Shown one piece after another: positions 18,025 to 38,351 of a stretch of 38,351 nucleotides of DNA (its first letter is position 1; every line of letters begins with the position of its first letter). This DNA is from a virus. Both the position numbers and the translations under genes were made by a program. The stretch lies in the IMG/VR virus record IMGVR_UViG_3300032073_000077, positions 1 through 38,351 of that record. One strand, written 5' to 3'. The notes below the pieces were generated by a model that saw only the letters and a program-made list of their open reading frames with translations, had not been told where the DNA came from and searched no databases.

Positions 18025-21000
18025 ATGGCAGAAGACAATGTGATTAATGTTACTGATGTAGCATCTAAGGGTGTCGTGTTTGACACTCCTCCTGTGGCTC
18101 TCTCACCCAGCATATTTACAGATGTTAGAAATGTTAGATTTAAAGATGGTGCTATCAGAAAAATAGAAGGAGAATTATTACTCAATAATATAACTGAAGA
18201 CCTTGTACCAGCCAACGAAGAATTTGGTCGAGTAAGATACTTTGCAGTATGGGAAAATCCTAACAGACAGCCATTGGGTTGTTATTATATTTGGGTAGTT
18301 GATTACATCAGAGCAAGTGTTACAGTAGGTCAGAAGGTCTATATACAAGATCATACAGGAACTAAGAAAGATATTACACCTAGTACTATGTCTAATGGTT
18401 TTCAATTTACAACAACTGGTTGGCAACATACCTTATTCACTGGTGGTTTTTCTTTCATTATAAACAATGGGTTAGATAAACCACATTACATATTAGACAC
18501 AGCAGGTAATACAAACATAAACAATATAACATTAGCAGAACTTCCTGGATGGGATAGCTATAATGTTAATCAAACAGTTACCAGTGATACCTTTAGTACT
18601 GGAGAAAGAGAAGTGTTTGATCTCGGTCAGAAAGTAGATTTTTCTTTGAACAGTATTACAGTAGACGTAGGTGGAACTGCTAAAACAGTAGAGGCTGGAA
18701 CACCAGCAGGAACTAATACTCCAAACGGTAATACATTTGTTCCTGGAAATTATCCTTCCTACGGTTCGTTACCTTCAGTTACAAGTAGTAAATTTCAAAT
18801 TTATACAGATACACTAACCAATACAACAGTAGTTTATGTAGGTGGCTTAACCGATGGTGCTATTGCAACTGTAAAGATTGTATCTAGAAACCCTGTAACA
18901 GTTACTTGTGGAGTAATTGAATCGTTTGGTAACCTATTAGTTGCTGGTAATCTTACTGAGAAAGACGGTAATAATACGGTCAGAAGACTATCAGGTGTTG
19001 TAAGAACATCAGATGTTGCAGTTCCAGGTTCTGTACCTAACAACTGGAATCCTTTTGAGACTGGTGTAAATACAGCAGATGAATTTACTTTATCTGAAAC
19101 TAGTGTTATTAAAGATATGAAGTCTTTACAAAGTAATATGTATATTTATGCAACAGATAGTATTCATGTTATGAGACTTACAGGAAATGTAAATGCACCT
19201 GTATCTTTTAGTCCTGTAACAGATGAATATGGTTTACTTACAAAAGGCGGTGTAATAGAATATGATGGTAAGCACTTTATTATAGGTGGAAATGATATTT
19301 ATGTATTTGCTGGAAACCCAGGAGATATACAATCATTATCTGATTCTAGAATTAGACAATATTTCTTTAATAACCTTAATCCTATTTATGAACAACAGCT
19401 ATTTACTCTCTTAAATCATAGAGAAAATGAAATATGGGTTTGTTACCCAACACTGGCTTCCTTAGCTGGTGAATGTGACGAAGCTCTTATATGGAATTAT
19501 AGAGACAATGCTTGGACTGTTAGAGATCTTGATAGTGTTACAGGTGGAGATGTTGGACCAATTAAAGGTGGAGGTATACCAACAGCAACTATAGCTCTTA
19601 CAGGTAATTCAGGTAATGCTGGTTATACTAATAGAGGAAAGAAAGAAATACAAGCAGTCACAATCAATGGTGGCACACCAAAGAAGACAGTGGGAACTAA
19701 GGCTATTAAAACAGTAGCAGTAGGCACATTTAGTAACTTTACTACAGATACACTTGAGGTAATAGACCTTACTCTTACAGGAGATAGTGGTCCAAATACT
19801 GTCACAGCAAGAAGCACATTAACATTTAATGCAGGCAGTACATTCACCTATGATAGAGACGGAAGTACTTATCTTGACGGTGGAGCAAGTGTAATCATAA
19901 CTGGTGATAGTAGTATTGGTACGGTAAATCTCCCAGCAACTGCATTATTAGGAACTAATCAAGCAGAAGGTGCAACTATTAATATGACAATATTAGTAGC
20001 GGCAATTAGAGATTATATCAATAATAACAATGCCTTATCAGACTGGACAGCAACTGCAAGTACAAATGTATTGACATTAACTTCAGATGTTCCAGGACCA
20101 AGAGCATTCAGTACAAGTTCATTGGCTATCGGTGGTGGTGCAACTACTAGTATTGCAGTCGCTTCAACGAGAACTGGAGTAGGTATATACGGTATTACTT
20201 CAGCACTTAGTCCAGCTATCAGTATGAGAATACAAGCTAGTGCTGTCGGTGGTTTACACGATGCCATTGATGAAACAATAACATTTAGTACTGGAAAAAA
20301 TAGTCAGGCTTTATTAGCAGCAGATGCTTTACCTTTGTTACAAGCTAAAACAGTATTCAACGGTGGCAATAGCTCTATCTATAGTGTATCAAATGTTAGT
20401 AACAAGATTAGATTCACCTCTAGACTAGGAGGAAATCATAGTGCTCTCACTATTACATTTAAAACTAGTTATGGTGGAACTGATTACACTGAAACAACTT
20501 TCGGTGGTGATGTAACAAGTAGTGTTAGTGTAGTAACTGCTGGAGTAGATAGAAGTATACCTCCAATTACTATGACACTAACTTTCCCAGCAGGGAATAC
20601 TGCAGTAAAAATATTAGAAGGTACATTTAGTCGTGCTAATATAGTAACTGAAATAGATACGCTAGTAGATGCAGACAATAATTGGACAGGTGCTACAGGT
20701 ACAGGTCTAGTTACAGCTACAGCTAGTGCAATCGGAGTTCAGAGTAATAACTTTGGAGTCGCTTTAACAAGCATAGGTTCGTTACCAAGTGGATTTGCAA
20801 ATAGTACTTTTACTCTAGCACAAACAAGAGCTGGTCGAGCAGCACATAGTACAACAGATACTATAACGCTCACACCTCCTTTAGGTAATCCAATATCAGT
20901 TAATTTTAATAGTACAACTGCGTTTGATCCTGATTCAGGAAGTAGTCCTACTAACGTTGAGACTATAACTGCAACAGAGATAGCCACAGCATTACAAGCA

Positions 21001-22281
21001 GCATGGACAGACACTACACATTTTACTGTGACTAGAAATAATGCAATATTAACTTTTACCAGTGTATTAAGAACAAACGTATCTGGTTCATTTAGTTATA
21101 CAGTAGCACAAGGCACATCGAGAACTGGCACACTAGTCAGTCCTCTTATTGCTAACTCTACAGGAGGTAACATCTCAGTTACGGAAGGTATAACAGCAAT
21201 ATATGCTAAGATGACTCGTGTTACAATAACCCTACAAACACTCTCAGGAGATAGTGTTATATTCGATAGACACTATGGAGAAGGTCCAGGAAGGCTATTA
21301 GATCCTGACTTTACTTTACTTCCAGGAGATAGCAGGTATGGAGATACAGGGTTAAGCAGTGATGCTGCATACTTAGCAACTTACTATAATCCAGATGCAA
21401 CTCAAAACGCAACGGAATTAGCAAAACCTAACGGTGCTGTCGTAAATACTCTTACTGCAATGCAGGCGGCATTAGCATCTATAAGTTCTAATCAATTACT
21501 ATTGGTAACTCCCAACAGTTCGAGTTCACCGACTAGTATTGTTATAAGTCCTAGTCAATTTAGTTCTAATGCTAACTATGTTAAATCATTTAGTCCAGCT
21601 ACACAAGTAGTTACTGCGAGTGTTGCACCTACAACTACTGCACTCACTAATGTGGCAGAGGGTAATACGGTTGCAGCAGGTAGTCCTACCCAAAGCACAA
21701 GTGGAACTACTATAAATACTACATTTGATATCGTTAGACCATGGAGTAATCTTAATGTAAATCCTAATAAATCTTTTCCCATCTTTGCAGAAAGTGGATT
21801 TAATAGTGGTACGTTATTTAATCGTATAAGAGCTGGAGATCTCGGATTTGATTTTGCAGGCACTAACTATATATCTTATTTTGAAAGACAACAGATGTCT
21901 ATTACACCTACATTCGATACTGAAACTATAGAGAGTATTTCTTTATGGGCAGATGGAGGAACGATAACAACTGTTGGAGGAGAGCCCCAGAGGGCTACAC
22001 TTCATGTGCGAGCAAGAGGTACTAACTATTCTGGAGAAGATCCTTATTTAACTGTACCAGAAGATAATACTCAGACCAACGCTAAGCGTAATAAACTTGT
22101 CATTAATGATTTTACTGTAGGCACTAGCCATAAGGTAGATGCACGAACACAAGGTCGATATATTAATTATCGAGTTGATGACGCTGTAAAGAGCTTGGCT
22201 GGCGGCTATCTAGCTAATAATAATAAGGCATGGAATATATCTGGTCTACAGATGAAGGTTAGAAAAGGAGGAGATAGATAA
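18025..22281 (+). CDS. Giant tail nozzle (gp12-like) protein with inserted beta domains
   Basis: This is a 1418-residue protein. Residues 1 to about 510 follow the T7 gp12/SU10-like nozzle plan: 'DTPPVALSPSIFTDVRNVRF', 'GRVRYFAVW', 'VICG/VIESFGNLLVAGN' and beta-propeller-type repeats, with 'FAGNPGDIQSLSDSRIRQYF', 'WVCYPT' and 'ALIWNYRDNAWTVRDL' near 430-500. Residues about 1230-1418 resume the family ('FAESGFNSGTLFNRIRAGDL', 'GRYINYRVDD', ending LQMKVRKGGDR). Between them about 700 residues form at least four Thr/Val/Ser-rich beta repeats, each ending in a TRTG/TRAG-like turn (for example VASTRTGVGIYG, LAQTRAGRAAHS). The core should form the hexameric tail tube exit; the insert probably projects outward. 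AAGGAG precedes ATG 18025. Confidence 0.85.
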   Translation: MAEDNVINVTDVASKGVVFDTPPVALSPSIFTDVRNVRFKDGAIRKIEGELLLNNITEDLVPANEEFGRVRYFAVWENPNRQPLGCYYIWVVDYIRASVTVGQKVYIQDHTGTKKDITPSTMSNGFQFTTTGWQHTLFTGGFSFIINNGLDKPHYILDTAGNTNINNITLAELPGWDSYNVNQTVTSDTFSTGEREVFDLGQKVDFSLNSITVDVGGTAKTVEAGTPAGTNTPNGNTFVPGNYPSYGSLPSVTSSKFQIYTDTLTNTTVVYVGGLTDGAIATVKIVSRNPVTVTCGVIESFGNLLVAGNLTEKDGNNTVRRLSGVVRTSDVAVPGSVPNNWNPFETGVNTADEFTLSETSVIKDMKSLQSNMYIYATDSIHVMRLTGNVNAPVSFSPVTDEYGLLTKGGVIEYDGKHFIIGGNDIYVFAGNPGDIQSLSDSRIRQYFFNNLNPIYEQQLFTLLNHRENEIWVCYPTLASLAGECDEALIWNYRDNAWTVRDLDSVTGGDVGPIKGGGIPTATIALTGNSGNAGYTNRGKKEIQAVTINGGTPKKTVGTKAIKTVAVGTFSNFTTDTLEVIDLTLTGDSGPNTVTARSTLTFNAGSTFTYDRDGSTYLDGGASVIITGDSSIGTVNLPATALLGTNQAEGATINMTILVAAIRDYINNNNALSDWTATASTNVLTLTSDVPGPRAFSTSSLAIGGGATTSIAVASTRTGVGIYGITSALSPAISMRIQASAVGGLHDAIDETITFSTGKNSQALLAADALPLLQAKTVFNGGNSSIYSVSNVSNKIRFTSRLGGNHSALTITFKTSYGGTDYTETTFGGDVTSSVSVVTAGVDRSIPPITMTLTFPAGNTAVKILEGTFSRANIVTEIDTLVDADNNWTGATGTGLVTATASAIGVQSNNFGVALTSIGSLPSGFANSTFTLAQTRAGRAAHSTTDTITLTPPLGNPISVNFNSTTAFDPDSGSSPTNVETITATEIATALQAAWTDTTHFTVTRNNAILTFTSVLRTNVSGSFSYTVAQGTSRTGTLVSPLIANSTGGNISVTEGITAIYAKMTRVTITLQTLSGDSVIFDRHYGEGPGRLLDPDFTLLPGDSRYGDTGLSSDAAYLATYYNPDATQNATELAKPNGAVVNTLTAMQAALASISSNQLLLVTPNSSSSPTSIVISPSQFSSNANYVKSFSPATQVVTASVAPTTTALTNVAEGNTVAAGSPTQSTSGTTINTTFDIVRPWSNLNVNPNKSFPIFAESGFNSGTLFNRIRAGDLGFDFAGTNYISYFERQQMSITPTFDTETIESISLWADGGTITTVGGEPQRATLHVRARGTNYSGEDPYLTVPEDNTQTNAKRNKLVINDFTVGTSHKVDARTQGRYINYRVDDAVKSLAGGYLANNNKAWNISGLQMKVRKGGDR

Positions 22282-25580: not shown

Positions 25581-28061
25581 ATGAACTTAAAAAAATATAC
25601 ACAAAAAGATAGGTATGGAAATATGTTTTCCTACGAGTTCGATGTACCCTCTATGCAAGAGATTCCTCAACCAGATCCAGAGATATTTAAACCAAAGGGA
25701 ACTGATACTGTACCTGCTATGTTAACTCCTGGAGAGAATGTAGTGAATGCAGAAGCATCTAGACTTCCTGGAGTACAACCTATGCTTGATAAACTCAATG
25801 ACAAAGGTCGTGCTATACAGAAAGAACAAGGTGGACCGATACCTAGTTACAATTCAAGAGGAGATAAAGTAGACTACTATGGTAATAATTATGGTCAATC
25901 AACTATCAATGCAGAAATAAACACATTAAAAGGAATGGGATTATCTGATGCACAGATTATACAGGCTCTTATGAATAACCTTAATATGTCTCAAGGAGAA
26001 GCTCAATCGGCTTTAATGCCTACCTATAAACAAGAAGGCGGAGTCATCACAGAAGACATGATGCCTAGCGTACTTGATGCTATAAGGAAAGTAGAATCTG
26101 GTGGTGATGTAAATGCAGTATCTGAAGTAGGTGCAGCAGGACCATATCAGATAATGAAAGCCACAGCATTAAAACCTGGGTATGGTGTAGAAGCTATAAG
26201 TGGTGCTGATAGATTTAATGAGGTAAAGTCGAGAGCCTTTGCTAAACAATACCTACAAGGTATTATGAAGGCACACCCAGAGTTTACTAAAGATGAAGTG
26301 ATAACAGCTTATCACTCAGGAGTTGGTAATGTTCTCAAGGCTAAAGGTGGCGTAGAAGAACTCGGTACTCGTGGTAAGAGATATGCTGGTAAAGTAAACA
26401 CCGCTATGGGTATACCTAAGATAATTGAATATGATGCTACACCTCAAGAAGCAGGATTTATGTCTGCACAGGCGAGCACTATGTCAGATAGAGAAAAGAA
26501 AGATGCTGAATTGTTAAAAGGAATAACACAAGAAAGGGATATCGATGATCGTAATTTCTTTACTAAACTATTTAGCGATGCACCTCCAGCTGAAGATCCA
26601 GTATTACCTATGGATGAGAGTGAGAATGCTTTAGGTGTTATCCCTGATTTTAAAAGTAAATTTCCTCAAATGGTTAATACTTTATTTAAAGCTCCTCCTA
26701 AAACAGTTGAAAGCATAGTCGATGATGACCCATCTGGAGCAGAAATAACTGCTAATAGTGCTGCTAAATTGATTGAAGAAATGGAGGCTTCAGAGGGTTA
26801 CGCAGAAGAAGAAGGTAAGCTAACCTTAGATAAGGCAGATACTGAATGGGCTAAAAAGAATCTTACAGGTAAATACGAAGGTGACTTTAGTCAATACCTT
26901 ATTAATAAAGGAAAAGAATATGGCGGTATTGCATTAGATAAATCTATAGAGTATTTTAAAAATACTTTTTCAAATATGTTTGATGGAGAAGAGCTTGCTC
27001 GAATGGCTCTTATGTATACTGGTTCTCGTGCATTAGGCTATGACCATCTTTCTTCTATTAAATATGGAATGAAAAACTATATTAAGCGTGTTGATAACGA
27101 AATAGCTCAACGTAAAAAGAATGTTGCAAGTGCTGCATGGATTAAGGAGTATACTCCAGAATCAATGGCTCTCTATTTAAAGTCAGGAGATATGAGTGAT
27201 CTAGCAAAGAAAGGAGCAACACTAAAGAAACCTAGTGGTAGTGTTTATGTTGTAGGTGAGGGAGAAGTACCTACATTTACAATGTCAGATGGAACTGAAA
27301 CAGCATTTCATAAAGGACAATATAAACCTTTTACACATAAAGACTTGATAGGTCGAGTAGACAAAATGAATAATGATGTCTATGGTGATGTGGCTGTTAG
27401 TAAACGATTTGCAGAGTATGCTAAAGAACAAATTAAAAAGGCTAATGCAGATGCTGGTCTTAAAGCAGGTAGAAAAGACGATGATACCTACGATACTATG
27501 TTTAGAGAGAATGCTAATTCGATTGGAACTAGAGCTAATGCAGTATATAGGGAAGTTCTTAGATCTAACTTTATATCAATAAAACAAGCTCCTCGCTATG
27601 AGATGGCTATACAAAGAGGTATAGATGCATATCTCAGAGATGTTGCCCTTGCTAAAAAGAACAACAGAACTGCTCCAAAGAGCGTAGAAGCCTATATAAG
27701 AGAGCAAGTGTTTGTTCCGTTATCAGGCGTTGGAGGAGATCAGGTCGGAAAGACCTCTACTCAGCATATAACTGAGATAAATAGAGAGGTTAAGAGAGGT
27801 ATTCCAGGAGCTCCAGACAGTCAAGAGTATTTAGAAGAATACAAAAGACGATGGGCAAAGAAGACTGTAGCTTGGAATCAACTACGATTGACTAATCCTA
27901 AACAATACCAAAAGATTAAAGACGGTGTTGATAGGCGTAATAATATCTGGCTCAAAGAACAACCAGATAAAACAACTATAATAAAAAATTGGGATCCATT
28001 TACATATTGGGTCTCCATAACTCCAGAAAGTGAAATTGATAGGCTGATTGACACAGCATAA
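25581..28061 (+). CDS. Internal virion protein with lytic transglycosylase domain
   Basis: This is an 826-residue protein. The N-terminal 'DTVPAMLTPGENVVNAEAS' (about 40-60) is a motif common at the start of ejection and tape-measure proteins, followed by GG mini-motifs (KEQGGPIP, KQEGGVIT). Residues about 155-270 form a soluble lytic transglycosylase (SLT) domain: catalytic E172 in 'RKVESGGD', 'GAAGPYQIMKATA', and 'AYHSGVGNVLKAKGG' in place of the usual AYNAGxG. It should cut peptidoglycan glycan strands when ejected, like the N-terminus of T7 gp16. The remaining about 550 residues are helical and charged. A strong hairpin terminator follows the gene. Confidence 0.85.
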   Translation: MNLKKYTQKDRYGNMFSYEFDVPSMQEIPQPDPEIFKPKGTDTVPAMLTPGENVVNAEASRLPGVQPMLDKLNDKGRAIQKEQGGPIPSYNSRGDKVDYYGNNYGQSTINAEINTLKGMGLSDAQIIQALMNNLNMSQGEAQSALMPTYKQEGGVITEDMMPSVLDAIRKVESGGDVNAVSEVGAAGPYQIMKATALKPGYGVEAISGADRFNEVKSRAFAKQYLQGIMKAHPEFTKDEVITAYHSGVGNVLKAKGGVEELGTRGKRYAGKVNTAMGIPKIIEYDATPQEAGFMSAQASTMSDREKKDAELLKGITQERDIDDRNFFTKLFSDAPPAEDPVLPMDESENALGVIPDFKSKFPQMVNTLFKAPPKTVESIVDDDPSGAEITANSAAKLIEEMEASEGYAEEEGKLTLDKADTEWAKKNLTGKYEGDFSQYLINKGKEYGGIALDKSIEYFKNTFSNMFDGEELARMALMYTGSRALGYDHLSSIKYGMKNYIKRVDNEIAQRKKNVASAAWIKEYTPESMALYLKSGDMSDLAKKGATLKKPSGSVYVVGEGEVPTFTMSDGTETAFHKGQYKPFTHKDLIGRVDKMNNDVYGDVAVSKRFAEYAKEQIKKANADAGLKAGRKDDDTYDTMFRENANSIGTRANAVYREVLRSNFISIKQAPRYEMAIQRGIDAYLRDVALAKKNNRTAPKSVEAYIREQVFVPLSGVGGDQVGKTSTQHITEINREVKRGIPGAPDSQEYLEEYKRRWAKKTVAWNQLRLTNPKQYQKIKDGVDRRNNIWLKEQPDKTTIIKNWDPFTYWVSITPESEIDRLIDTA

Positions 28062-28068
28062 TAACACT

Positions 28069-28132
28069 TATCCCTAAAGGATTCTTAACACACCCTTATA
28101 GGGGAGAATCCCTTTAGGGATACCTTATTTTA
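28069..28132 (+). terminator. Long hairpin, probable terminator, after the 826-residue gene
   Basis: The segment 28069-28085 (TATCCCTAAAGGATTCT) pairs with 28105-28122 over 17 base pairs with a single bulged C. The loop holds a second short stem, CCCTT/AGGGG. CCTTATTTT follows, an imperfect T tract. It could be a terminator, or an RNA processing site like those cut by RNase III in T7. Confidence 0.65.
28085..28108 (+). promoter_or_regulatory. Second copy of the intergenic motif, before the 1488-residue gene
   Basis: CACCCTTATAGGGG (28091-28104) matches the motif at 16210-16223. In its context, ACACACCCTTATAGGGGAGA, it also recalls single-subunit RNA polymerase promoters of the T7 group around their TATAGGGAGA end. 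It sits in the loop of the long hairpin. Promoter function is a hypothesis. Confidence 0.35.
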
Positions 28133-28146
28133 ATCAGGAGGTCTAT

Positions 28147-31100
28147 ATGGCTACATTTCAAGATAATCAAGGCAAACAATACACATGGGTAGATAGTGAT
28201 ACCATAGCAGATAACGACAGAAGTTATCGTATTGTAGGTTATAATGCTAGAGAGACCTCTAAGGTTGTTCCTGACAATGAAACAGGTTTACCTAGATTTA
28301 TTATGGGTCAACAAGGTGGTGACGAACAATCCGAAGCTACGCAGAGAATAGCTGCTGCTGGCGGTTTTAATATTATTGAAAGCACAGGAGAGTTTGATTC
28401 TTATGGAAGAGAACTGATTAGAATAAAAGATGCTAAAGGAAATGATCTTAGTAATACACTAATAAGATCAGGAGCAGTCGGTATTAATCGATATACCGAT
28501 GAACAAGGCTTAAAGGCATACGAAGATGGTTTAATGGCTAGAGAGTCAGGGAAGGTATCTAACTATGGTAAAATAGCTGATGAAGTAATTACAAAGAGAC
28601 CTATCTATTTTAAAGATACTCCGTTAATGGAGAAAGCATTTGGATCAAGTCCTACTACTGAGAATGATTATGCCCAACAAGTACTACAAGTTATTGCAGA
28701 ACAAAGAGGTTTAAATCTACAAGACGATGATCAGTTAAGAGAAGCAACTAAAATATTAGATAGCGGAAACTATGATCAACGTAGCATACCTTTTACTGCT
28801 ATAGCTTTTAGGTCTCCTGATAGAACAAAAGAAGGAATAGCCTACAATCAATTCTCAACTTCATGGAATCAAGGCTGGGCTGGAATGGCTAGAGGTCTTA
28901 TGGGTTTTTCAGAGCTAATGGGAGTTACCATTGGCAACGAAGAAATGAAAGAATGGGGTGGTGAAGGTGTTAAAATATATAGTGAAGAATTAAAAAGAGC
29001 ACCTAGACTTGAGAGCATGGATTACCGTGATGTTGATGATGTATGGGATGCATATAGATTTATTTCAAATAACTTAGCCATGTCAGCACCTTATCTCGTT
29101 ACACTTACTACAGGTGCATTATTAACACCAGTTACTGCAGGTGTTTCTATGGGTATTGCCTATGGATCAGTCGGAGGCAGTTATGCTGGTCAAGTATGGA
29201 ACGATATTGAAGGACCGAAAGGTAGACAAGAAGCTGGATTATCTTTATTAGCTGGTACTGCTATGGCAGTTATTGATGCCTTCGGTTTTAAAGGCTTGAT
29301 AAGTCCATCCAGAATACTTAGCAAAGAGGGGAGAGAATATCTAGCCGAAGAAATAGCTAAACGAAGTAAAGGAGAGATAACAGTTGAACAGGCAAGAGAA
29401 TCAGTTAGAGTAATGTCTGTTAAAAAGATGAAAGAGACCATGGAAGGTATGGGTAACTTCGCCTACGATCTTGCTAAACAAGGGAGGCTTGCTCCGTTAA
29501 TTGCGAAGTCACAGTTCATTAAAAGTGGAATTAAAGGTGGTCTTCGAGAGGCTGGCACTGAAGCTGCTCAAGAAGGTCTTGGTTACCTTGCCTCTAAAGC
29601 GATGTCAGAAGGTGGTCTTGATAAAAACTTTGATATGGAAAAGTTTAAAAACTTATTAGCACAAGCTGCAGTGGCAGGTGGTACTCTTGGTACTGGATTT
29701 GCAACTGCTGGTGAGCTAGTTCAAGTTGGAAAGAATAAGGTTCTTAAGCGTGATCTTGAAGAAGGTAAACTAGATAGTTTAAATCCATTTGATAGAATTA
29801 GACGAGAGTTTAATCCTGAAGAAAAAATAACTGATCCTGTTACTGGAATAGAAAGATCTTTCGGTAACAATGATATTATAGATGAGAACAAAAAAGGATC
29901 GGTCAGCCTAAATGTTAATAGTATGGATGAAGCCAATATTAATAGGCTTAATAAAGAACGAATCCTACTAGGTAAACTATCTGATACAGAGCTTAATCAA
30001 AAACTTTCGGATATAGAAAATCGAATAGCTAAAAACGATGAAAGTATTGCTTTAAATTCTGATATAGCAAATCATCCTGATGTAGCTGAAAAAGACAAAG
30101 CAGAGGCTAGGGTAAGAAATAGAAATCTTGAAGGGGATAGGAGAAGAAATCTAGTAAATAAGGAACAAGTAGAAAGAGAGACAACTGGAAGAGCACAAGG
30201 AAGGATAGCTGAGCTAACTCCTAAAGAAGTAGAAAGGATAGAAAACGATATAGCTAAATATGAAGCTAGACCAAAAGATGTTGAACCTCAAGAGTCTAAA
30301 GTAAAACAAGCTACAGAAGCAAGACAAAAAACTTTAGAATCAAGAAAAAGAGACAGAACTTTTTGGGATAAACTTAAAAACTTTAAAGAGTATTTACCAA
30401 AAGGATATCGTGCAGCAGCAACTTCTATCTTTAGACCAGAGTTACTTAGACTAAGTGAGACATTAAGAAAATTAGCTTCTCTAATAGGATCACCTTTAGG
30501 TTCTATGTACAGTGGTAGAAATGTAGAACACTATTCAGATCATTTATTCAGTAACAGATTTATGTCTATACTAAAAGCAAAAAATATATTTCAAAGATTC
30601 GGTTATATAGATACCTTAAGTAACTCAAAAGAAATATCTGAAATAATATATAGATATATGAATGCACAAAAATTAGATCCCACTAGTGCAGAGGCTATTG
30701 CTTACTTTAATAGTAAAGAATACATCAAGCACAAATCAGCTCTTGAAATAACAGTCAATGATCTAAATGACTTAGTACAAACTATGTTTGATTTAGAATA
30801 TGAAATGATGGTTAAAGAAATAGGGGCTGGTGCTGCCATAAGAAGAATCAATGACCCTAAAGATCCTTTCTGGATGAATACAGGTTCTTTTGATTGGAAA
30901 AAAGTTAGACAGAACGAGTCTGCTTGGAAAGCTTTTATGGCTAAGAATGCTAGAAAAATGAATGGAGAAAAATATACTTATTCAGAGATTAACGATCTTT
31001 ATATTAAGATATCTAATCAAGAAGAAGCCAGTGATTTTTCTTTAGTTGAAGGAGACTTCTGGCAACCTAACACTTTTAAAACTAGTAAAGGTCAAAACCT

Positions 31101-32613
31101 CTCTACTGCTGATGGCTTTAGTGATTTTGCTAATACTGACATCATACTTAATATGACTCACTTGTCTAGACAGTATGCTAAGTATATTGCGTACACTACT
31201 TACTTCGGAGCAGGTGGTAAAGACCTTGACTATATGCTTGGTCAAATGAAGGAAGAAGGTTTAAGTGATGACCAAATAGCTGAAGTGGCTCAAGGTGTAA
31301 AAGATATTATTGATGCAGGTACAGGTAACTTTAACAATATTAAAAGTAAAAACTTAAACTTTTGGCAAAGAAAAGCTTCTTTCTTTTCTACGTTAATAGG
31401 ATTACCCTTCTCTGTTCTCGCATCCTTTGCAGAATTTGCTATGTTACTTTATAATGATCCTGGATTTCCTGTGATTAAAGAGGGAATTAAAAAAGCAATG
31501 GGTGAAATGATTACTATATTTAAAGATATAGAAAAAGGAACTCAAAACCCAGCATTAGAAAATGTACCTAATTCAGCTAAAGATTCAAAGGCTTTACATA
31601 GACTAATGATGAATGGACTAGTACATGAAGACGCAGTCGGTGCAACAAGATTAGGGATGGGTGAAACAGATGTTGCCCAAGCTTGGTTTTTAAAGAAATT
31701 TTTTAAGGTTACTTTAATATCACCTTTAACTTTATTCCAAAGAATACTAGCACAAAGTCAAGTAGCTGGTTTTGTTAGTGATAGATTAAGACTATTAGCA
31801 GCAATACCTGAAGGCTACCCTATGAATAACCGACAACAAGAAGTCTATACTCAAATGCTTAATATGGGAATGGATGTTGATACAATGGTTGCTATGTATA
31901 TCAAGTATGATGGCAATCAAGCGTTATTTGATAGCCTTATGGAAGACACTACAGATAAAGTTGCTCAAGCTGATATGGATTTTATGAATGAGCAAATGGA
32001 AATAGGATCTTATGCTTTTATAAATGAAAGAGTTCAAAACCCTAAGGCATACAATAGACCTTTGTTATTCCAAGACCCTCATTACCAACTATTCTTACAG
32101 TTTAACGGTTTTATAAGTACATTTACTGCTAATATTATACCGAAGTTATGGATTGACTATACTAAAAATGGTTCTCCTAGAATGAGATATAATACCTTTG
32201 CATTAATGATCATTATGTTTGCCTTAGCTGGATTATCACAGTGGTTAAAAGACTATATCAAGTTTAAAGACAGTACACCTTACCTAACTAAAGAACAATT
32301 ACTTCAAAGAGCACTTATGGCTTCTGGAATATTAGGTTCAGGTGAAAGAGTATTACAAGCAGCATTTCCACTGTATAGGAGTAGAGATGAGAGCATAGTC
32401 GATAGAGTCTTTGGTGAAACAATAGGTGGTGCTCCCTTTGTCCGTAACGTTGCTAACATAGGTAAATCAATAGGTTCTGCTCTAGAAGGAAAAACTGAGC
32501 AGGCAGTTAGACAAGGGTTAACAGCAACTCCGTTAATCGCACCAGCAACACCAATAAGAAATATAATACACGATTCAATATTTAATCCAACAGATATTAG
32601 ACCGTACAAATAA
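28147..32613 (+). CDS. Giant internal virion protein with N-terminal SNase-like domain
   Basis: This is a 1488-residue protein. Residues 10-112 match a staphylococcal nuclease fold: D18 in DSDT (cf. SNase D21), R28 (R35), N33 (D40), E36 (E43) in 'RIVGYNARET', and R88 (R87) in 'DSYGRELIRI', followed by 'NTLIRSGAVG'. The three catalytic residues Arg/Glu/Arg are kept with the SNase spacing; one metal ligand is Asn. The rest resembles a very large ejection protein of the T7 gp15/gp16 kind: hydrophobic stretches at about 308-350, 1078-1101 and 1351-1368, long charged helices around 600-750, and 'GYRAAATSIFRPELLRLSET'. AGGAGG precedes the start. A role in DNA delivery is inferred; the nuclease activity is a prediction. 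Confidence 0.8.
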   Translation: MATFQDNQGKQYTWVDSDTIADNDRSYRIVGYNARETSKVVPDNETGLPRFIMGQQGGDEQSEATQRIAAAGGFNIIESTGEFDSYGRELIRIKDAKGNDLSNTLIRSGAVGINRYTDEQGLKAYEDGLMARESGKVSNYGKIADEVITKRPIYFKDTPLMEKAFGSSPTTENDYAQQVLQVIAEQRGLNLQDDDQLREATKILDSGNYDQRSIPFTAIAFRSPDRTKEGIAYNQFSTSWNQGWAGMARGLMGFSELMGVTIGNEEMKEWGGEGVKIYSEELKRAPRLESMDYRDVDDVWDAYRFISNNLAMSAPYLVTLTTGALLTPVTAGVSMGIAYGSVGGSYAGQVWNDIEGPKGRQEAGLSLLAGTAMAVIDAFGFKGLISPSRILSKEGREYLAEEIAKRSKGEITVEQARESVRVMSVKKMKETMEGMGNFAYDLAKQGRLAPLIAKSQFIKSGIKGGLREAGTEAAQEGLGYLASKAMSEGGLDKNFDMEKFKNLLAQAAVAGGTLGTGFATAGELVQVGKNKVLKRDLEEGKLDSLNPFDRIRREFNPEEKITDPVTGIERSFGNNDIIDENKKGSVSLNVNSMDEANINRLNKERILLGKLSDTELNQKLSDIENRIAKNDESIALNSDIANHPDVAEKDKAEARVRNRNLEGDRRRNLVNKEQVERETTGRAQGRIAELTPKEVERIENDIAKYEARPKDVEPQESKVKQATEARQKTLESRKRDRTFWDKLKNFKEYLPKGYRAAATSIFRPELLRLSETLRKLASLIGSPLGSMYSGRNVEHYSDHLFSNRFMSILKAKNIFQRFGYIDTLSNSKEISEIIYRYMNAQKLDPTSAEAIAYFNSKEYIKHKSALEITVNDLNDLVQTMFDLEYEMMVKEIGAGAAIRRINDPKDPFWMNTGSFDWKKVRQNESAWKAFMAKNARKMNGEKYTYSEINDLYIKISNQEEASDFSLVEGDFWQPNTFKTSKGQNLSTADGFSDFANTDIILNMTHLSRQYAKYIAYTTYFGAGGKDLDYMLGQMKEEGLSDDQIAEVAQGVKDIIDAGTGNFNNIKSKNLNFWQRKASFFSTLIGLPFSVLASFAEFAMLLYNDPGFPVIKEGIKKAMGEMITIFKDIEKGTQNPALENVPNSAKDSKALHRLMMNGLVHEDAVGATRLGMGETDVAQAWFLKKFFKVTLISPLTLFQRILAQSQVAGFVSDRLRLLAAIPEGYPMNNRQQEVYTQMLNMGMDVDTMVAMYIKYDGNQALFDSLMEDTTDKVAQADMDFMNEQMEIGSYAFINERVQNPKAYNRPLLFQDPHYQLFLQFNGFISTFTANIIPKLWIDYTKNGSPRMRYNTFALMIIMFALAGLSQWLKDYIKFKDSTPYLTKEQLLQRALMASGILGSGERVLQAAFPLYRSRDESIVDRVFGETIGGAPFVRNVANIGKSIGSALEGKTEQAVRQGLTATPLIAPATPIRNIIHDSIFNPTDIRPYK

Positions 32614-32625
32614 TAGGAGACTTAA

Positions 32626-35600
32626 ATGGCTAAACGTTATACAACAGCGGAGCTTCAAAAAATTAAATTAGATCAGGAGAATCAATTAAATTTTGATGCT
32701 GCTAATCCGATATTAGAATCTGCGGATAATATTATGTCTGGTAATTTACCTTCAGAAACGGTAGGCAGTAATACGCCTATCGAATCTATTGCAAACACAT
32801 CAGTAGTAACAGGGAGACCCTCTCCTTCTACTATAGGTGGACCAACTCCAGATATAGGTTCTCCAGCTAGAGGGCTAGGGGTTGTTCCAACACAAGCTGA
32901 TTACGAAGATCAAGCACAGGCAGGTGATCTTGCTATTAACGTTGATGCTGCAGATCCTTTTGCAGTAGTATCACCTACTTTAGCTACACCAGAAGAATCT
33001 AAGGGGTTGTTACAATCAACAGTTAGTAGAGGGGCTATTAATAGAGAAAACTTTAAAGAAGAAAATCTTAAAGCCATACCTGAATTAATTAATTTACAAC
33101 AACAACTAACTAATGATGAATTAAAATATGGTAATAGGGAAGCAGAGTATATCGCTAAATTATTTGAAGCAACTTCTAAAGCAACTACTGATGCCACTAA
33201 TATATTTGATTCTGACTCATTAGCAATAACTAATGAACAAAAAACTCAGGCATTTGGTAATGCTCAAAATTATTTAAACGAAAATGCTGATGAAGTAAAC
33301 TATATAATAAGAAGTGTAGACTTATTAAATATGTCTGAAGATTCTAGTGATATTAATTCACCACTTAAAAAAGATCTCGGTCCAATCATAGCAGCTGCAG
33401 CTATATTAGAAACTGCTCAAATACTAAGTGATCAAGCTGCAGAAGTAGACGATCAGGATTCTGAGAAAAGACATTCTAACGATATGTCGAAGGAAGTTAT
33501 CGGTCCAAGGGTCGGAGCTAAAATTGAACAAATGATTTTTGGTTCTAAAGACTTAGATACACCTAATAGGTCAGGATTACCTAGAGATTATGGATATGTA
33601 TCGAGATTAACTGGACAACAACGAAGTCTTTTAGGTCAAATATCAATGGATGCTATGGCAAGGAGTCCTTTATTTGATTTCCTTACAGAAGAAGAAGTGA
33701 TTGATATTAATACTGGAAAACCTAAGACCATATATAACACTACAAGACTGCAATATTATAATTTAAATAGGGTTGTTAATGCTGTTAGGGATATGTTAGG
33801 AGAAAGTGGTCCTCAAAAACCTGTCAGACATAGTAAGAAAGGTAAAGGAAGGCTAGCTCCTATGAGTGAGAAGGGAGCTTATAAAACCTCTAAGATGACT
33901 AAGAATGTATCTAAGAGTGAAGCAGTAGAGGAAATGGATACTGCTCGTCATAAAGCAGACAATATAGTACATACTGTACCTCCTCAAATACCTATAATAT
34001 ATGCTGGATTTCTTAATGCTGGATTAGATGCCGCAGCTCTTCAAAAGAACGGTACTGATTTAACATCGAGTGCAGCAGCTAAATATACTAAGCAAGACTA
34101 CGAATACTACCAAGATAAGGTTCAAGACTATCTCGAAGATTACCTATTAAAAGAAGAAAAGCTTGGATTAAAAGTAGAAGATCTTAAAACATATGATCCA
34201 CTTACAGGAGCACCAGCCACTACCTTCATGAGAGCCGCAGAATTAAAAGCTGATGGCGTAGTTGCTCGACATAAAGAACGCTGGGAGCGTAGAATAAGTG
34301 AAGGCTTTGACAATATAGGTAAGCCAATATACTTTGATAATAGATCAATTTCTTTTGGTATGAGAATGTTTGGTTCACAGGATGAATTAAACTATTGGCA
34401 AGATAAAATAGCGAGGGGCTTATTACATCCAGCCTTCCCTACAATATTTAAGAAGACTGGAGAAGCAAAGAATTTAACAGGTCAAGTAGATATGCTTGGA
34501 ACACCTTTAAATGTAAATGATTATTACTCCTCAGTAATAGATAGTGCTATAGAGAAATCAAAAAATAATTTAGAATACGATAAATTTACTGATGAAGAAA
34601 ACTATCATCGTATAATGGCAAGAACTCTCGTTCCAGATGCTGATAAATATATCTTTGAAAACTATGCAGATGTTCTTCAAGTATACAAAGAAATGTATAC
34701 AGAGCTTGTGTCTCTCGGTCAACAAATCAATGAATTTAAAGATTCTCAAAAAGAAAAGGTAGCTACACCTGAGGCGATTGATCTCAGTGCTCGAAATCCT
34801 AATGCAATAGACAGAATGCCTATCAGTGCTTCTCTTAATGAGTACTTAGAAAAAATAGGTAAGGATGAATTCTATTACGCATTAAACAACCTACCTGATT
34901 TAGCTTTGTATGATGCTAAAGGTGTTGATCAAGACTTTGCAACTAAAGTAAAAGCAGGTGCTGATGGAGTAGCTAACGGTGCTACTATTCTAGGTTACCA
35001 ACTAGGAATAGAAGAAATAATAACAAGAGGAGGCATACTCCTTAATGGTAGAGAAACTATCGAAGAAGACCTAAGAGATTATGTGTTCAATAAGATGGCT
35101 CAACTCCCTGAAATAAAAGCAGATAATGGAGACCCTGATCAATGGGATCTTTCATTCAGAGCAATGGCAGCTGATAACAAAAAGAAAGACCTAATGAAAA
35201 GCCCAGTCATGACTACTATGTATGGTCTTGAAGCTGATTTTCAAAAAGGTGCAGCTGAACAATTTGTTAAGAAGAATCCTAAATACTTTAAACATCTTGA
35301 TGAGACTAATCCAACTAAAATAATCGAAGGCTTAAGAAATTATATGGCTGACGGATTAAAACTTGGATTGGGTCCAGCACTAGATCATGCAAATTTAGCT
35401 AAACGTATTGGTCGTCTTTTCGTATTGGCAGATGAACCTGCAATAATGCGTGGACCAAAACTAGGCGAAACAGATTCTAGTCGCTTTCCTCTAGTTGCTA
35501 CAGGTGTTAAATCATTAGTTACTAGTGATGACACATATATGCTAGGTACAGGAGCAACACCTGAAGGTCAAGACATAGCAACTACTCGAATCAAGACTAC

Positions 35601-36369
35601 TAAAGCAGTAGCTGATGTCGTAGAACCTAAAGCATCAAAGCTAATAGGTGCTGGCGGACAAAGGAGTAAGCCAGGAAAAGGCAGTGGAACTATGGATAAG
35701 ATACCAGTTGCATCTACAACAGCTCAAGATGCTGCAGTTATTATTAAGTATCTTAATGGAGAACTAGAGCCTGACGAATTCTTTATGCAAATTTATGATG
35801 GTGTTATTGGTGATGTTAAATCTTTCTTCAAGATGACTGAAGCAATCAATAGAATCTTTTTAGATGTGGTTCAAAATTATAAATTACTAGAAGAAGAACA
35901 GCGAATGGTTGTTAATCTTAAAGAGAAGTTTAAAGCAGAAGCGAAAAGCAATCCTGATGGGATAAAAGATTTAAGTCCAACAGGAAGATATGCATATCTG
36001 GGTGAATTTCTATCAAATGGTTATATGAGAAATGAAACTCTTAAAAAAGATTTACCGTTTAGAACTTCAGATAGTAGAATTGCTAATCTAGATAACACTA
36101 AGGCTAGTCCAGAAGATACTCGACATAAAGCAAATCATCGAAGATTACAAGCAGTTAAAGCAGACATTAAAAATATAGCAGATAAGTTAAATTATAACAA
36201 CAGATACGCTGCTACTAAACAACTAACCAATGTGGAATTTAGTAAACTCTTTAATGAACTAATAACTGCACTCGGTACTTTATCTGAGTTAGATAAAAGA
36301 GTAATTGAAGCTAAAGTAAAACAAAAGAAAATTGCAGATAAAATTAGAAAGACTATGCAATATAAATAA
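32626..36369 (+). CDS. Putative virion RNA polymerase (N4 vRNAP-like single-subunit RNAP)
   Basis: This 1247-residue protein lies at the end of the ejection block. Residues 1 to about 540 are low-complexity then helical, with no assignable family. From about 566 it follows the order of single-subunit RNA polymerases: 'YFDNRSISFGMRMFG' with R573 resembles the D-x-R-G-R region, although the T7 R425 position is Ile. Motif A has D780 (GADGVANGATI). Motif B has K858 and Y866 eight residues apart (MKSPVMTTMYG, cf. T7 K631/Y639). 'STTAQDAAVI' resembles the HSxDxxH segment. Motif C has D1058 (MQIYDGVIGD, cf. T7 HDSFG D812). It is probably packaged and ejected to transcribe early genes. No sequence search has been made. 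Confidence 0.72.
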   Translation: MAKRYTTAELQKIKLDQENQLNFDAANPILESADNIMSGNLPSETVGSNTPIESIANTSVVTGRPSPSTIGGPTPDIGSPARGLGVVPTQADYEDQAQAGDLAINVDAADPFAVVSPTLATPEESKGLLQSTVSRGAINRENFKEENLKAIPELINLQQQLTNDELKYGNREAEYIAKLFEATSKATTDATNIFDSDSLAITNEQKTQAFGNAQNYLNENADEVNYIIRSVDLLNMSEDSSDINSPLKKDLGPIIAAAAILETAQILSDQAAEVDDQDSEKRHSNDMSKEVIGPRVGAKIEQMIFGSKDLDTPNRSGLPRDYGYVSRLTGQQRSLLGQISMDAMARSPLFDFLTEEEVIDINTGKPKTIYNTTRLQYYNLNRVVNAVRDMLGESGPQKPVRHSKKGKGRLAPMSEKGAYKTSKMTKNVSKSEAVEEMDTARHKADNIVHTVPPQIPIIYAGFLNAGLDAAALQKNGTDLTSSAAAKYTKQDYEYYQDKVQDYLEDYLLKEEKLGLKVEDLKTYDPLTGAPATTFMRAAELKADGVVARHKERWERRISEGFDNIGKPIYFDNRSISFGMRMFGSQDELNYWQDKIARGLLHPAFPTIFKKTGEAKNLTGQVDMLGTPLNVNDYYSSVIDSAIEKSKNNLEYDKFTDEENYHRIMARTLVPDADKYIFENYADVLQVYKEMYTELVSLGQQINEFKDSQKEKVATPEAIDLSARNPNAIDRMPISASLNEYLEKIGKDEFYYALNNLPDLALYDAKGVDQDFATKVKAGADGVANGATILGYQLGIEEIITRGGILLNGRETIEEDLRDYVFNKMAQLPEIKADNGDPDQWDLSFRAMAADNKKKDLMKSPVMTTMYGLEADFQKGAAEQFVKKNPKYFKHLDETNPTKIIEGLRNYMADGLKLGLGPALDHANLAKRIGRLFVLADEPAIMRGPKLGETDSSRFPLVATGVKSLVTSDDTYMLGTGATPEGQDIATTRIKTTKAVADVVEPKASKLIGAGGQRSKPGKGSGTMDKIPVASTTAQDAAVIIKYLNGELEPDEFFMQIYDGVIGDVKSFFKMTEAINRIFLDVVQNYKLLEEEQRMVVNLKEKFKAEAKSNPDGIKDLSPTGRYAYLGEFLSNGYMRNETLKKDLPFRTSDSRIANLDNTKASPEDTRHKANHRRLQAVKADIKNIADKLNYNNRYAATKQLTNVEFSKLFNELITALGTLSELDKRVIEAKVKQKKIADKIRKTMQYK

Positions 36370-36682: not shown

Positions 36683-38351
36683 TTAACAGAAGAAGTAATC
36701 TGATTGAACTACTTCTTTAATATTTAAAGCACCGATAGTCGGTTGCTCACCTTCATAGCCTCTTCCAAATGGAATTGAGTCATAGAAGTTTTCTTTATCG
36801 TATAGCTTAACGAACTTATCTCGTGCCTCTATCATAAGGTCTTCTACCTTAGTGGCATGAGCACTAAATGAGTCATGTACTGCTCCGAAGTCACCATCCC
36901 AATCGGCTACTACAAGAGCCATATGAGCTGCATCAGAGCTATGAACAAAGTTAGGACTGATACCACACATAAACCCTCGTCTATCTGGTATATCTGTCTT
37001 CTCTCGTATCACATGCTTGAATCTCAGTTCACCTTCTGGTGTATTGAATCCGTAACAGTCTACCTTTGCAGGTCTAGTACGATAACATTCGTATATCACT
37101 GGAAAACCTGACTCGGATTCCCATTGTATACCACGACCTCTATCAGTACCATAAGTTGCTAACCAATTAGAGATTTCTTTATCAGCTAATCGTTGCAGAT
37201 ATCTCATAGTATCTAATGGACCTGGACAGACCTCTTGTATAGCTCTTATTACTTGATTACTAAGCTCATCACAATCCCAAGTATTGATATTGTAATCTTT
37301 AGTATAACCAAACTGATAACAGTCACTATACATAGACTCTGACATTTTCTTCTGACCACAGCTGTAAGCCCTAGTCATAGCCCCTCTCTTAGCTATCCCT
37401 TTCCTGATATGCTTCATAGGCATCTGCCTTTCTTCAAACCATTCAGGCATCCTCTCGCATAATCTCTTTGCCACTTGAACATAGAAATCATTGGGTACAT
37501 CTTCAGAGGTTAATCCTACTAGTCTACCTGTAAGGGAGTCTTTAGACATAGCACCTAAGTGTTGCCAACCATTATTAGCACCATCAATAGGTATCGGTAG
37601 CTGAGTATAGAACTCTCCTTTACTCTGGGAGTACTTATACCACTCGATACAACAAGCCATGAATGCTATTCGTTTCTCTGCTTCTTCTGCAAAGATCCTC
37701 ATCTCACCCATCTCAATTATCGTATCAATATTCTCTTGAGTCCATCTAGCTCTATCATCTAGTGTCATCTTATCTACAGATATAGTATCAAGTTCTTCTT
37801 CCTGTAATATCTTCTTATAGTCTGAAGATGCCCAGTTAGGTATCTGATCTATACTGTATGACTGATTAAATGAACAAGCAGTATGTACTGCCAACCAGAA
37901 GTTAGCTGTCTCATCAAAGAGTTTTCCTTTGGCAAAGAGTAACTGACTACGAGCTATATCTGCTCCTTGAAAGTTAAAGAACGGTTCACTATAATATAGT
38001 CTACCTCTATAGTCTGCATCTAAGTAGAAGCTAAACTCTTTGTCTAACCACTTATCAGCTGCTGCCATAACCTCTTTGACTTCTCTATTCTTTGACGCTT
38101 GGCGTTGATATAGCTTAGCGTTCTCATTCTTATCCTCACCATCAAAGGTATCGTTGCTAATAAACGTATCCCAATTCTCTAGGATAGCCTTATGTACATC
38201 AGGGTTTACAGTAAACCTAGTTGCCTGTAACTTATCGATTGCCTTTACAAATGGCTTATCGAGATACTTAAAGAACTTATGCTCTTTAGATTTATCCCAA
38301 GTCTTTATAACTGACTTCCCATTATTTTGGAATAGGCTCTTTATAGGAGGT
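36683..38351 (-). CDS. T7-like single-subunit RNA polymerase (5' end beyond window)
   Basis: About 555 codons are visible. The frame stays open from the ATG at 38068 to the window edge (PPIKSLFQNNGKSVIKTWD, AIDKLQATRFTVNPDVHKAI), so that Met is internal and the N-terminal promoter-binding domain lies outside. Landmarks match T7 RNA polymerase: 'DADYRGRLYYSEPFFNFQG' (D-x-R-G-R), motif A 'IPIDGANNGWQHLGAM', motif B 'RKGIAKRGAMTRAYSCG' (Lys and Tyr eight apart), 'NFVHSSDAAHM', and motif C 'GAVHDSFSAHA' near 36870. The terminus is hydrophobic-aromatic (SDYFFC), like the Phe-Ala-Phe-Ala foot of T7. It should transcribe the middle and late genes. Its leftward direction is opposite to the structural genes, unlike T7. 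Confidence 0.95.
   Translation of the reverse strand, partial: PPIKSLFQNNGKSVIKTWDKSKEHKFFKYLDKPFVKAIDKLQATRFTVNPDVHKAILENWDTFISNDTFDGEDKNENAKLYQRQASKNREVKEVMAAADKWLDKEFSFYLDADYRGRLYYSEPFFNFQGADIARSQLLFAKGKLFDETANFWLAVHTACSFNQSYSIDQIPNWASSDYKKILQEEELDTISVDKMTLDDRARWTQENIDTIIEMGEMRIFAEEAEKRIAFMACCIEWYKYSQSKGEFYTQLPIPIDGANNGWQHLGAMSKDSLTGRLVGLTSEDVPNDFYVQVAKRLCERMPEWFEERQMPMKHIRKGIAKRGAMTRAYSCGQKKMSESMYSDCYQFGYTKDYNINTWDCDELSNQVIRAIQEVCPGPLDTMRYLQRLADKEISNWLATYGTDRGRGIQWESESGFPVIYECYRTRPAKVDCYGFNTPEGELRFKHVIREKTDIPDRRGFMCGISPNFVHSSDAAHMALVVADWDGDFGAVHDSFSAHATKVEDLMIEARDKFVKLYDKENFYDSIPFGRGYEGEQPTIGALNIKEVVQSDYFFC

Follow-up and report, generated by a model that had tools for sequence, protein, structure and literature searches.

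Gene order at the locus

The window, by which we mean the whole 38,351-base stretch of DNA analyzed here, is a virus record from a podovirus-type phage, and its capsid protein is 53% identical to the capsid protein of Roseobacter phage CRP-7. We focused on a very large gene in the window and on the genes that flank it:

25581-28061, + strand: upstream neighbor, 826 aa, with an SLT transglycosylase domain at residues 160-260 (PF01464, E 2.2e-12)
28147-32613, + strand: 1488-aa protein with an SNase domain at its N-terminus, predicted to be an ejection (internal virion) protein; an ORF homologous to CRP-7 gp34 and matching phrog_6958
29095-29301, + strand: hydrophobic, glycine-rich stretch, residues 317-385, with hydropathy peaks at 317-335 and 363-385; a possible membrane-active segment
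31177-32169, + strand: C-terminal region common to LUZ24-like virion proteins (residues 1011-1341 by phrog_6958, residues 1011-1335 by tblastn)
32626-36369, + strand: downstream neighbor, 1247 aa, without a recognized domain, presumed to be the third protein of the ejection set

The gene for the 1488-aa protein belongs to a group of very large late genes adjoining a wall hydrolase. The protein is also related to a protein found in virions, with virion data that are those of its relatives and not of this phage group. The relationship was detected toward the C-terminus, where residues 1011-1341 of the window protein matched phrog_6958, annotated as a virion structural protein (E 1.8e-18). The same phrog was found in all five further family members scanned (5/5), and in tblastn residues 1011-1335 matched Pseudomonas phages Lyrsu01-03. 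According to the accessible text of the paper on phage tf, nine proteins of LUZ24 virions were detected by mass spectrometry (PMC3517423). A model of the C-terminal 608 residues was all-helical and poor in confidence (pLDDT 64.4), and its comparison with the PDB gave no match at E <= 0.001 and no ejection-protein fold. Given the low model confidence and the lack of a useful PDB match, no claim made here rests on the C-terminal fold.

The gene upstream of the 1488-aa protein encodes a wall hydrolase in all six phages examined, which matches the expectation for an injection set. The hydrolase was an SLT protein in the window, G003 and G015, a phage lysozyme in G026 and G020, and a pesticin-like lysozyme in CRP-7. 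The family of the upstream hydrolase varies (25581-28061 in the window; L112:4968-8807, L113:3531-6905 and L001:4181-7852) while the adjoining SNase domain is constant. We make no claim for sequence conservation of the upstream protein, because its DRYGN motif was found in only 22 of 62 relatives. Downstream, a large same-strand ORF was present in 65 of the 65 relatives with enough sequence. In the window this 1247-aa protein had no PHROG match at E <= 0.1 and a best Pfam E of 0.54, and its gene is followed by a T7-like RNA polymerase gene on the opposite strand. The gene order, the size of the protein and its C-terminal resemblance to virion proteins of the LUZ24 group lead us to predict that the window protein is an ejection protein. 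The same label had been given to it when the sequence was first read on its own, and these three lines of evidence support it as a prediction for this phage.

Several other features of the window were observed. An inverted repeat at 28070-28121, ATCCCTAAAGGATTCT versus AGAATCCCTTTAGGGAT, lies between the SLT and SNase genes and looks hairpin-like by eye. A 582-aa large subunit of ribonucleotide reductase (16254-18002; phrog_84, E 1.6e-133) is encoded among the structural genes, which would fit a phage that recycles host nucleotides. At 18025-22281, a 1418-aa protein matches the virion-structural phrog_3287, with its best stretch at residues 284-580. For a 461-aa ORF at 36683-38068 (- strand), similarity to phage RNA polymerases is confined to their C-terminal part, best at positions 440-816 of the 816 in phrog_414.

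A divergent SNase domain at the N-terminus

The 1488-aa ORF at 28147-32613 (+ strand) begins with a divergent staphylococcal-nuclease (SNase) domain that extends to about residue 133:

28147-28545, + strand: SNase-fold domain, residues 1-133 (AlphaFold model, VIA and profile search)

As a single sequence, the window protein makes a weak case. The Pfam SNase model (PF00565) matched residues 42-117 with 13.6 bits and an E of 0.092; this score is under the curated cut-off of 21, and so by itself it does not justify an SNase assignment. A single 170-aa piece of the protein gave no SNase match at E <= 0.1. A phmmer search of the PDB with the single window sequence returned only an unrelated chitinase (E 0.88) and was not decisive.

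When alignment A7, made of 53 relatives (rows) whose loci the structure-prediction tool accepted, was used as a profile against the whole PDB, 226 matches were obtained at E <= 1, and the best 60 of these were all SNase, the first at E 1.2e-5. A smaller profile of nine sequences found SNase in the PDB at E 6.1e-4. Single members of A7 were matched by Pfam SNase in 5 of 53 cases at E <= 0.1 (best E 3.7e-5), by the NCBIfam thermonuclease model NucI in 6 of 53 (best E 6.5e-5) and by EcnA in 1 of 53.

An AlphaFold2 model of residues 1-170 (pLDDT 87.7, pTM 0.79) has the SNase-type OB fold, with a helix between strands 3 and 4 and helices at the C-terminal end. All of the 50 best Foldseek matches listed for the domain model were SNase (best E 6.3e-5). 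In VIA-align, model residues 7-132 were superposed on SNase residues 9-136 with a Z of 11.1 over 109 residues at 2.9 A and about 20% identity, and Z ranged from 10.7 to 11.1 across the 50 best matches listed, every one an SNase. Among viral models (BFVD), the best match to the domain was a 1368-aa protein (E 7.3e-9), the same length as CRP-7 gp34, and the second was a 208-aa COG1525 protein.

With these results, we conclude that the N-terminal part of the window protein belongs to the SNase superfamily by homology and by fold. The sequence-only reading had placed an SNase-like domain at 28147-28500 and had set the OB fold as its structural check. The profile search (E 1.2e-5), Foldseek (E 6.3e-5) and VIA (Z 11.1) bear out the domain, and the AlphaFold model, Foldseek and VIA agree on the SNase OB fold. 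The start of the interval held; the end did not, since the domain continues to about residue 133 (28545).

Distribution of the domain and conservation of its active site

We scanned viral contigs (A5) with two peptides from the protein, one placed on the DxD motif of the SNase domain and the other more distal. The scan yielded 69 loci, all with the distal peptide, and 54 of these were without the SNase peptide. Among those 54, the 5' end was intact in 51, and every one (51/51) carried the SNase motif D-x-D-T/S ... R-x4-[DESNQ]-x2-E. We weighed ascertainment bias here: one A5 peptide covers the SNase DxD, and R28, E36 and R88 lie outside both peptides. Scanning the viral contigs with the window protein alone gave no relatives and scanning with CRP-7 gp34 gave seven loci; scans with A3 and A2 returned only contigs already found, and the window/G003 pair returned only the contig of G003. 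When whole records were searched for CRP-7 and 42 of the 80 capsid-gene loci, longer ones predominating, the protein was found in 6 of 43, most of the others being short contigs in which the gene may lie beyond reach. In six control loci, no ORF of at least 60 aa scored E < 0.08 for the domain, and the parts of Venkman and HTVC106P examined contained no SNase domain. Because the KPP25 gene spans the start of the record, this phage did not serve as a full control for absence of the domain. Three contigs with relatives of the protein (L191, L192 and L193) fall in the bins of metagenome-assembled genomes from a Dehalococcoidia, Pelagibacter and a Bacteroidetes; we base no host or prophage claim on them.

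The domain was absent from all three LUZ24-like counterparts that share only the C-terminal half (tf_51, 1021 aa; JB8, 1043 aa; KIT05_21, 927 aa). Presence in 51 of 51 loci and absence from these three indicate that the module marks the marine group, through gain here or loss there. This distribution bears on two alternative roles. The nuclease could be directed at the phage itself, trimming or nicking phage DNA, for example to free or process the genome end at the portal during ejection. In favor of this, the protein that carries the domain presumably lies close to the packaged DNA, and the genome of the LUZ24-like phage tf has localized nicks according to the accessible text of its paper (PMC3517423). 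Against it, the tf counterpart, tf_51, is without the domain, and SNase, which is sequence-unspecific, would be a poor choice for precise end processing. We consider a self-directed nuclease improbable. The nuclease could also have its target elsewhere than in the cytoplasm: beside the upstream wall hydrolase, it would act on nucleic acid that blocks the virion and is extracellular or associated with the envelope. The pairing with a wall hydrolase in the six phages examined would agree with such a barrier function, and sea water would supply Ca2+; on the other side, near-universal retention points to a core step, and planktonic hosts such as that of CRP-7 are not known to form biofilms. A role in clearing barriers seems to us very improbable.

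To describe the active site, we used SNase numbering (D19, D21, R35, D40, E43 and R87) taken from the PDB profile alignments. Capsid-gene relatives and profile searches together supplied 76 N-termini belonging to this protein family, and 56 of these were distinct. Left out of the counts were L123 and L177, whose 5' ends run off the contig, L131, whose frame is broken with the SNase motif still visible in its upstream frame, and L006 and L007, whose N-termini equal that of L005 over 220 residues. The positions in the window are:

28192-28203, + strand: DSDT motif, D16-T19, equivalent to SNase D19-T22, with D18 as D21; D16 and D18 in 56/56, T19 in 54/56
28228-28230, + strand: R28, equivalent to SNase R35; identical in 56/56
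28243-28245, + strand: N33, at the position of Ca ligand D40; in the family D 29, E 11, S 9, N 6 and Q 1 of 56
28252-28254, + strand: E36, equivalent to SNase E43; identical in 56/56
28408-28410, + strand: R88, equivalent to SNase R87; identical in 56/56

Pairwise identity of the domain among the 56 distinct N-termini averaged 33% and fell as low as 15%. The only invariant columns were D16, D18, R28, E36 and R88, which are D19, D21, R35, E43 and R87 of SNase. Position 19 was T in 54 sequences and S in two, D84 was D in 53 of 56, and G87 was G in 51 of 56. After clustering at 90, 70 and 50% (48, 37 and 22 representatives), D18, R28, E36 and R88 were still invariant. The R28-E36 spacing of 8 is the same as that of R35-E43 in SNase, and N33 falls at R+5, the place of D40. 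The D18-R28 spacing is 10 versus 14 in SNase, and the E36-R88 spacing is 52 versus 44, the longer distance accompanying an extra stretch with two strands (E39-42 and E49-52) in the model. R28, E36, R88, D18 and N33, which had been picked out from the sequence alone, were all found in their proposed places, with D18 as SNase D21, and R28, E36 or R88 was missing from none of the 56 distinct N-termini bearing the domain. The accompanying statement that R28, E36 and R88 keep SNase spacing was exact only for the R/E pair (8).

The position of metal ligand D40 behaves differently from the fixed residues. The window protein has N33 there, as had been noticed at the outset. An aspartate is absent in 27 of the 56 distinct sequences, and all 27 keep D18, R28, E36 and R88. 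We built a tree of 54 rows on the last 608 residues, with the SNase domain excluded, and found about 10 changes at the D40 position and none at D18, R28, E36 or R88. Scored as D versus not-D, the position changed nine times, eight of them forced by starred branches; these counts are approximate because the tree is a quick one with long branches. The window protein thus has the R/E/R set and the D21 equivalent of a Ca-dependent thermonuclease and an asparagine in place of its D40 ligand, and because of N33 we do not file it as a proven Ca-dependent nuclease.

N33 in the window, together with the loss of the aspartate in 27 of 56 distinct relatives, counts against a catalytic reading. It would be accommodated if the SNase fold had been kept as a non-catalytic, nucleic-acid-binding tip, one that grips the front end of the genome or steers DNA along the channel, an option that the sequence-only reading had also listed. 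Loss of D40 with about 10 changes on the tree is in keeping with such a tip, and the review of ejection proteins describes, in its accessible text, a cytoplasmic DNA-binding part in T7 gp16 (PMC8954989). Binding alone does not explain why R28, E36, R88 and D18 are unchanged in 56 of 56 sequences, even in those without D40. Strict retention of R28, E36 and R88 disfavors the non-catalytic option, which we regard as unlikely. Catalysis is favored because both arginines and the glutamate are retained even where D40 is lost, and pure binding would not need all three.

Substitutions at SNase D40 lower activity without abolishing it, and SNase requires millimolar Ca2+, which is scarce in the cytoplasm. 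The Mycoplasma SNase MAG_5040 has the same R/E/R set, cuts DNA and uses Mg2+, which it prefers, and is inhibited by Ca2+, as stated in the available portion of its description (PMC3585158). Because MAG_5040 uses Mg2+, an SNase could function at cytoplasmic metal levels. The combination of an unchanging R/E/R set and a metal ligand that drifts fits an enzyme re-tuned in metal use or rate better than it fits a dead one.

A proposed role at entry and its relation to known systems

Computation shows that the domain is homologous to SNase and shares its fold, that its catalytic residues are invariant, that nearly the whole phage group has it and that the gene neighborhood is conserved. We propose that the N-terminal SNase is a catalytically competent nuclease on an ejection protein that cuts host nucleic acid at entry. 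This is the best explanation we have, and we hold it tentatively, at slightly less than an even chance. Behind it we rank, in descending order of probability, a binding-only domain, a self-directed nuclease, exclusion of rival phages and a barrier role. We infer presence in the virion, ejection, cleavage activity and host nucleic acid as the target. The 1488-aa protein would be packed in the head with the genome and its two neighbors, and would leave with or before the DNA alongside them, one neighbor opening the cell wall. The SNase domain would then get to the periplasm or cytoplasm, where the tethered domain would cleave host DNA and/or RNA near the entry point. Such cleavage could aid take-over and free nucleotides at time zero, ahead of any phage gene expression.

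One point against our explanation is that the phage's own DNA would be at risk from an active nuclease packed alongside it. The shifting D40 ligand may contribute to protecting that DNA. A more specific and doubtful possibility is that this marine podovirus lineage injects a tethered SNase with every genome and uses the D40 position as a safety catch. The ligand would be tuned by lineage (E, S, N or Q, in about 10 changes) with R/E/R fixed, so that the enzyme is near-inactive in the packed, Ca-bathed genome and armed after ejection by refolding or by host metal conditions.

The place of action also matters for a role in defense at the entry site, in which the nuclease would stay in the envelope channel and cut the DNA of later-injecting rival phages (superinfection exclusion). 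The periplasm and sea water are Ca-rich, conditions to which an SNase is suited. The N-terminus of T7 gp16 acts in the periplasm according to the accessible text of the ejection-protein review (PMC8954989), but a nuclease in the channel would meet the phage's own DNA too. We rate exclusion of rivals as improbable.

If the domain is active, as our preferred reading of cleavage of host nucleic acid at entry holds, nucleic acid would be cut at the very start of infection by an effector that is coupled to the machine injecting the DNA and needs no phage gene expression. The results suggest that SNase-bearing phages may cut nucleic acid from the moment of entry. The phage group turns up repeatedly in sea-water metagenomes, and the finding raises the question of how a virus packs a general nuclease beside its own genome. 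In addition, a family deposited as hypothetical in CRP-7, the only isolate found here to carry it, receives a label.

The enzyme fold is known and the protein class is known; we did not find their combination, or this conservation pattern, described in the literature searched. Among the papers listed by our search, which covered few subscription journals, none was about an SNase domain in a podoviral ejection protein. In the accessible texts, no word beginning with "nuclease" or "SNase" occurs in the ejection-protein review (PMC8954989), no word beginning with "nuclease" occurs in the main text of the CRP-7 paper (PMC6918029), and "SNase" and "staphylococcal" have no occurrences in the main text of a survey of polyvalent proteins (PMC5512222). 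Polyvalent proteins (Iyer 2017) have several effector domains per polypeptide; one enzymatic domain was recognized in the window protein. Databases already hold an SNase label for a giant phage protein: the third BFVD match (E 3.6e-4) was UniProt A0A6J5NQ80, a 1342-aa protein of an uncultured Caudovirales phage named "Staphylococcal nuclease (SNase-like), OB-fold", which is a name only and apparently automatic.

Compared with SNase itself (PDB 1ey0 and variants; PF00565), the domain shares the fold (Z about 11), the R/E/R set, the D19/D21/T22 motif and the D83-x-x-G86-R87 block. It differs in its identity of about 20%, in N33 for D40, in a two-strand insert after E36, and in lying within a 1488-aa phage protein, whereas SNase is a secreted enzyme. 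CRP-7 gp34 (QBQ72827.1), deposited as a hypothetical protein, is homologous along the protein, with 24% identity over the alignment and 34% at window residues 15-119. The same N-terminal domain is present in it, where the motif residues read DGDT, R, D (the D40 position), E and YGR, and the three giant genes and the opposite-strand T7-like RNA polymerase gene of CRP-7 are arranged as in the window. In the accessible part of their paper, its authors describe CRP-7 as a short-tailed phage that represents a novel group (PMC6918029).

The LUZ24-like particle proteins (tf_51, UFV-P2 ORF58 and PaP3 p19) resemble the window protein in the C-terminal region and in a position ending the late gene block; tf_51 and UFV-P2 ORF58 are about 1,000 aa. 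As far as the accessible text of the review goes, T7 gp16, which serves as a model for the window protein, is ejected and has an enzyme at its N-terminus and a cytoplasmic part that binds DNA (PMC8954989). Like other podoviral ejection proteins, it is giant, belongs to a set with a wall hydrolase and has an enzymatic N-terminus (PMC8954989); gp16 itself carries the transglycosylase, whereas here the transglycosylase is on the neighboring protein.

The initial reading had called nuclease modules on injected virion proteins unusual, and our literature search agrees, with one close published analogue, the baseplate hub of prophage BtI1. This homologue of gp147 of Bacillus phage 0305phi8-36 has an SNase-related N-terminal domain where 0305phi8-36 has a transglycosylase, and its purpose was not obvious to the authors in the part of their paper available (Virol J 2007, PMC2147016). 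The likeness lies in an SNase-related N-terminus on a virion protein, there replacing the wall hydrolase of a relative (PMC2147016). The BtI1 protein is a tail hub in an unrelated phage-like element and a single case, whereas the domain described here sits on a podoviral ejection-type protein and is a conserved trait of its family.
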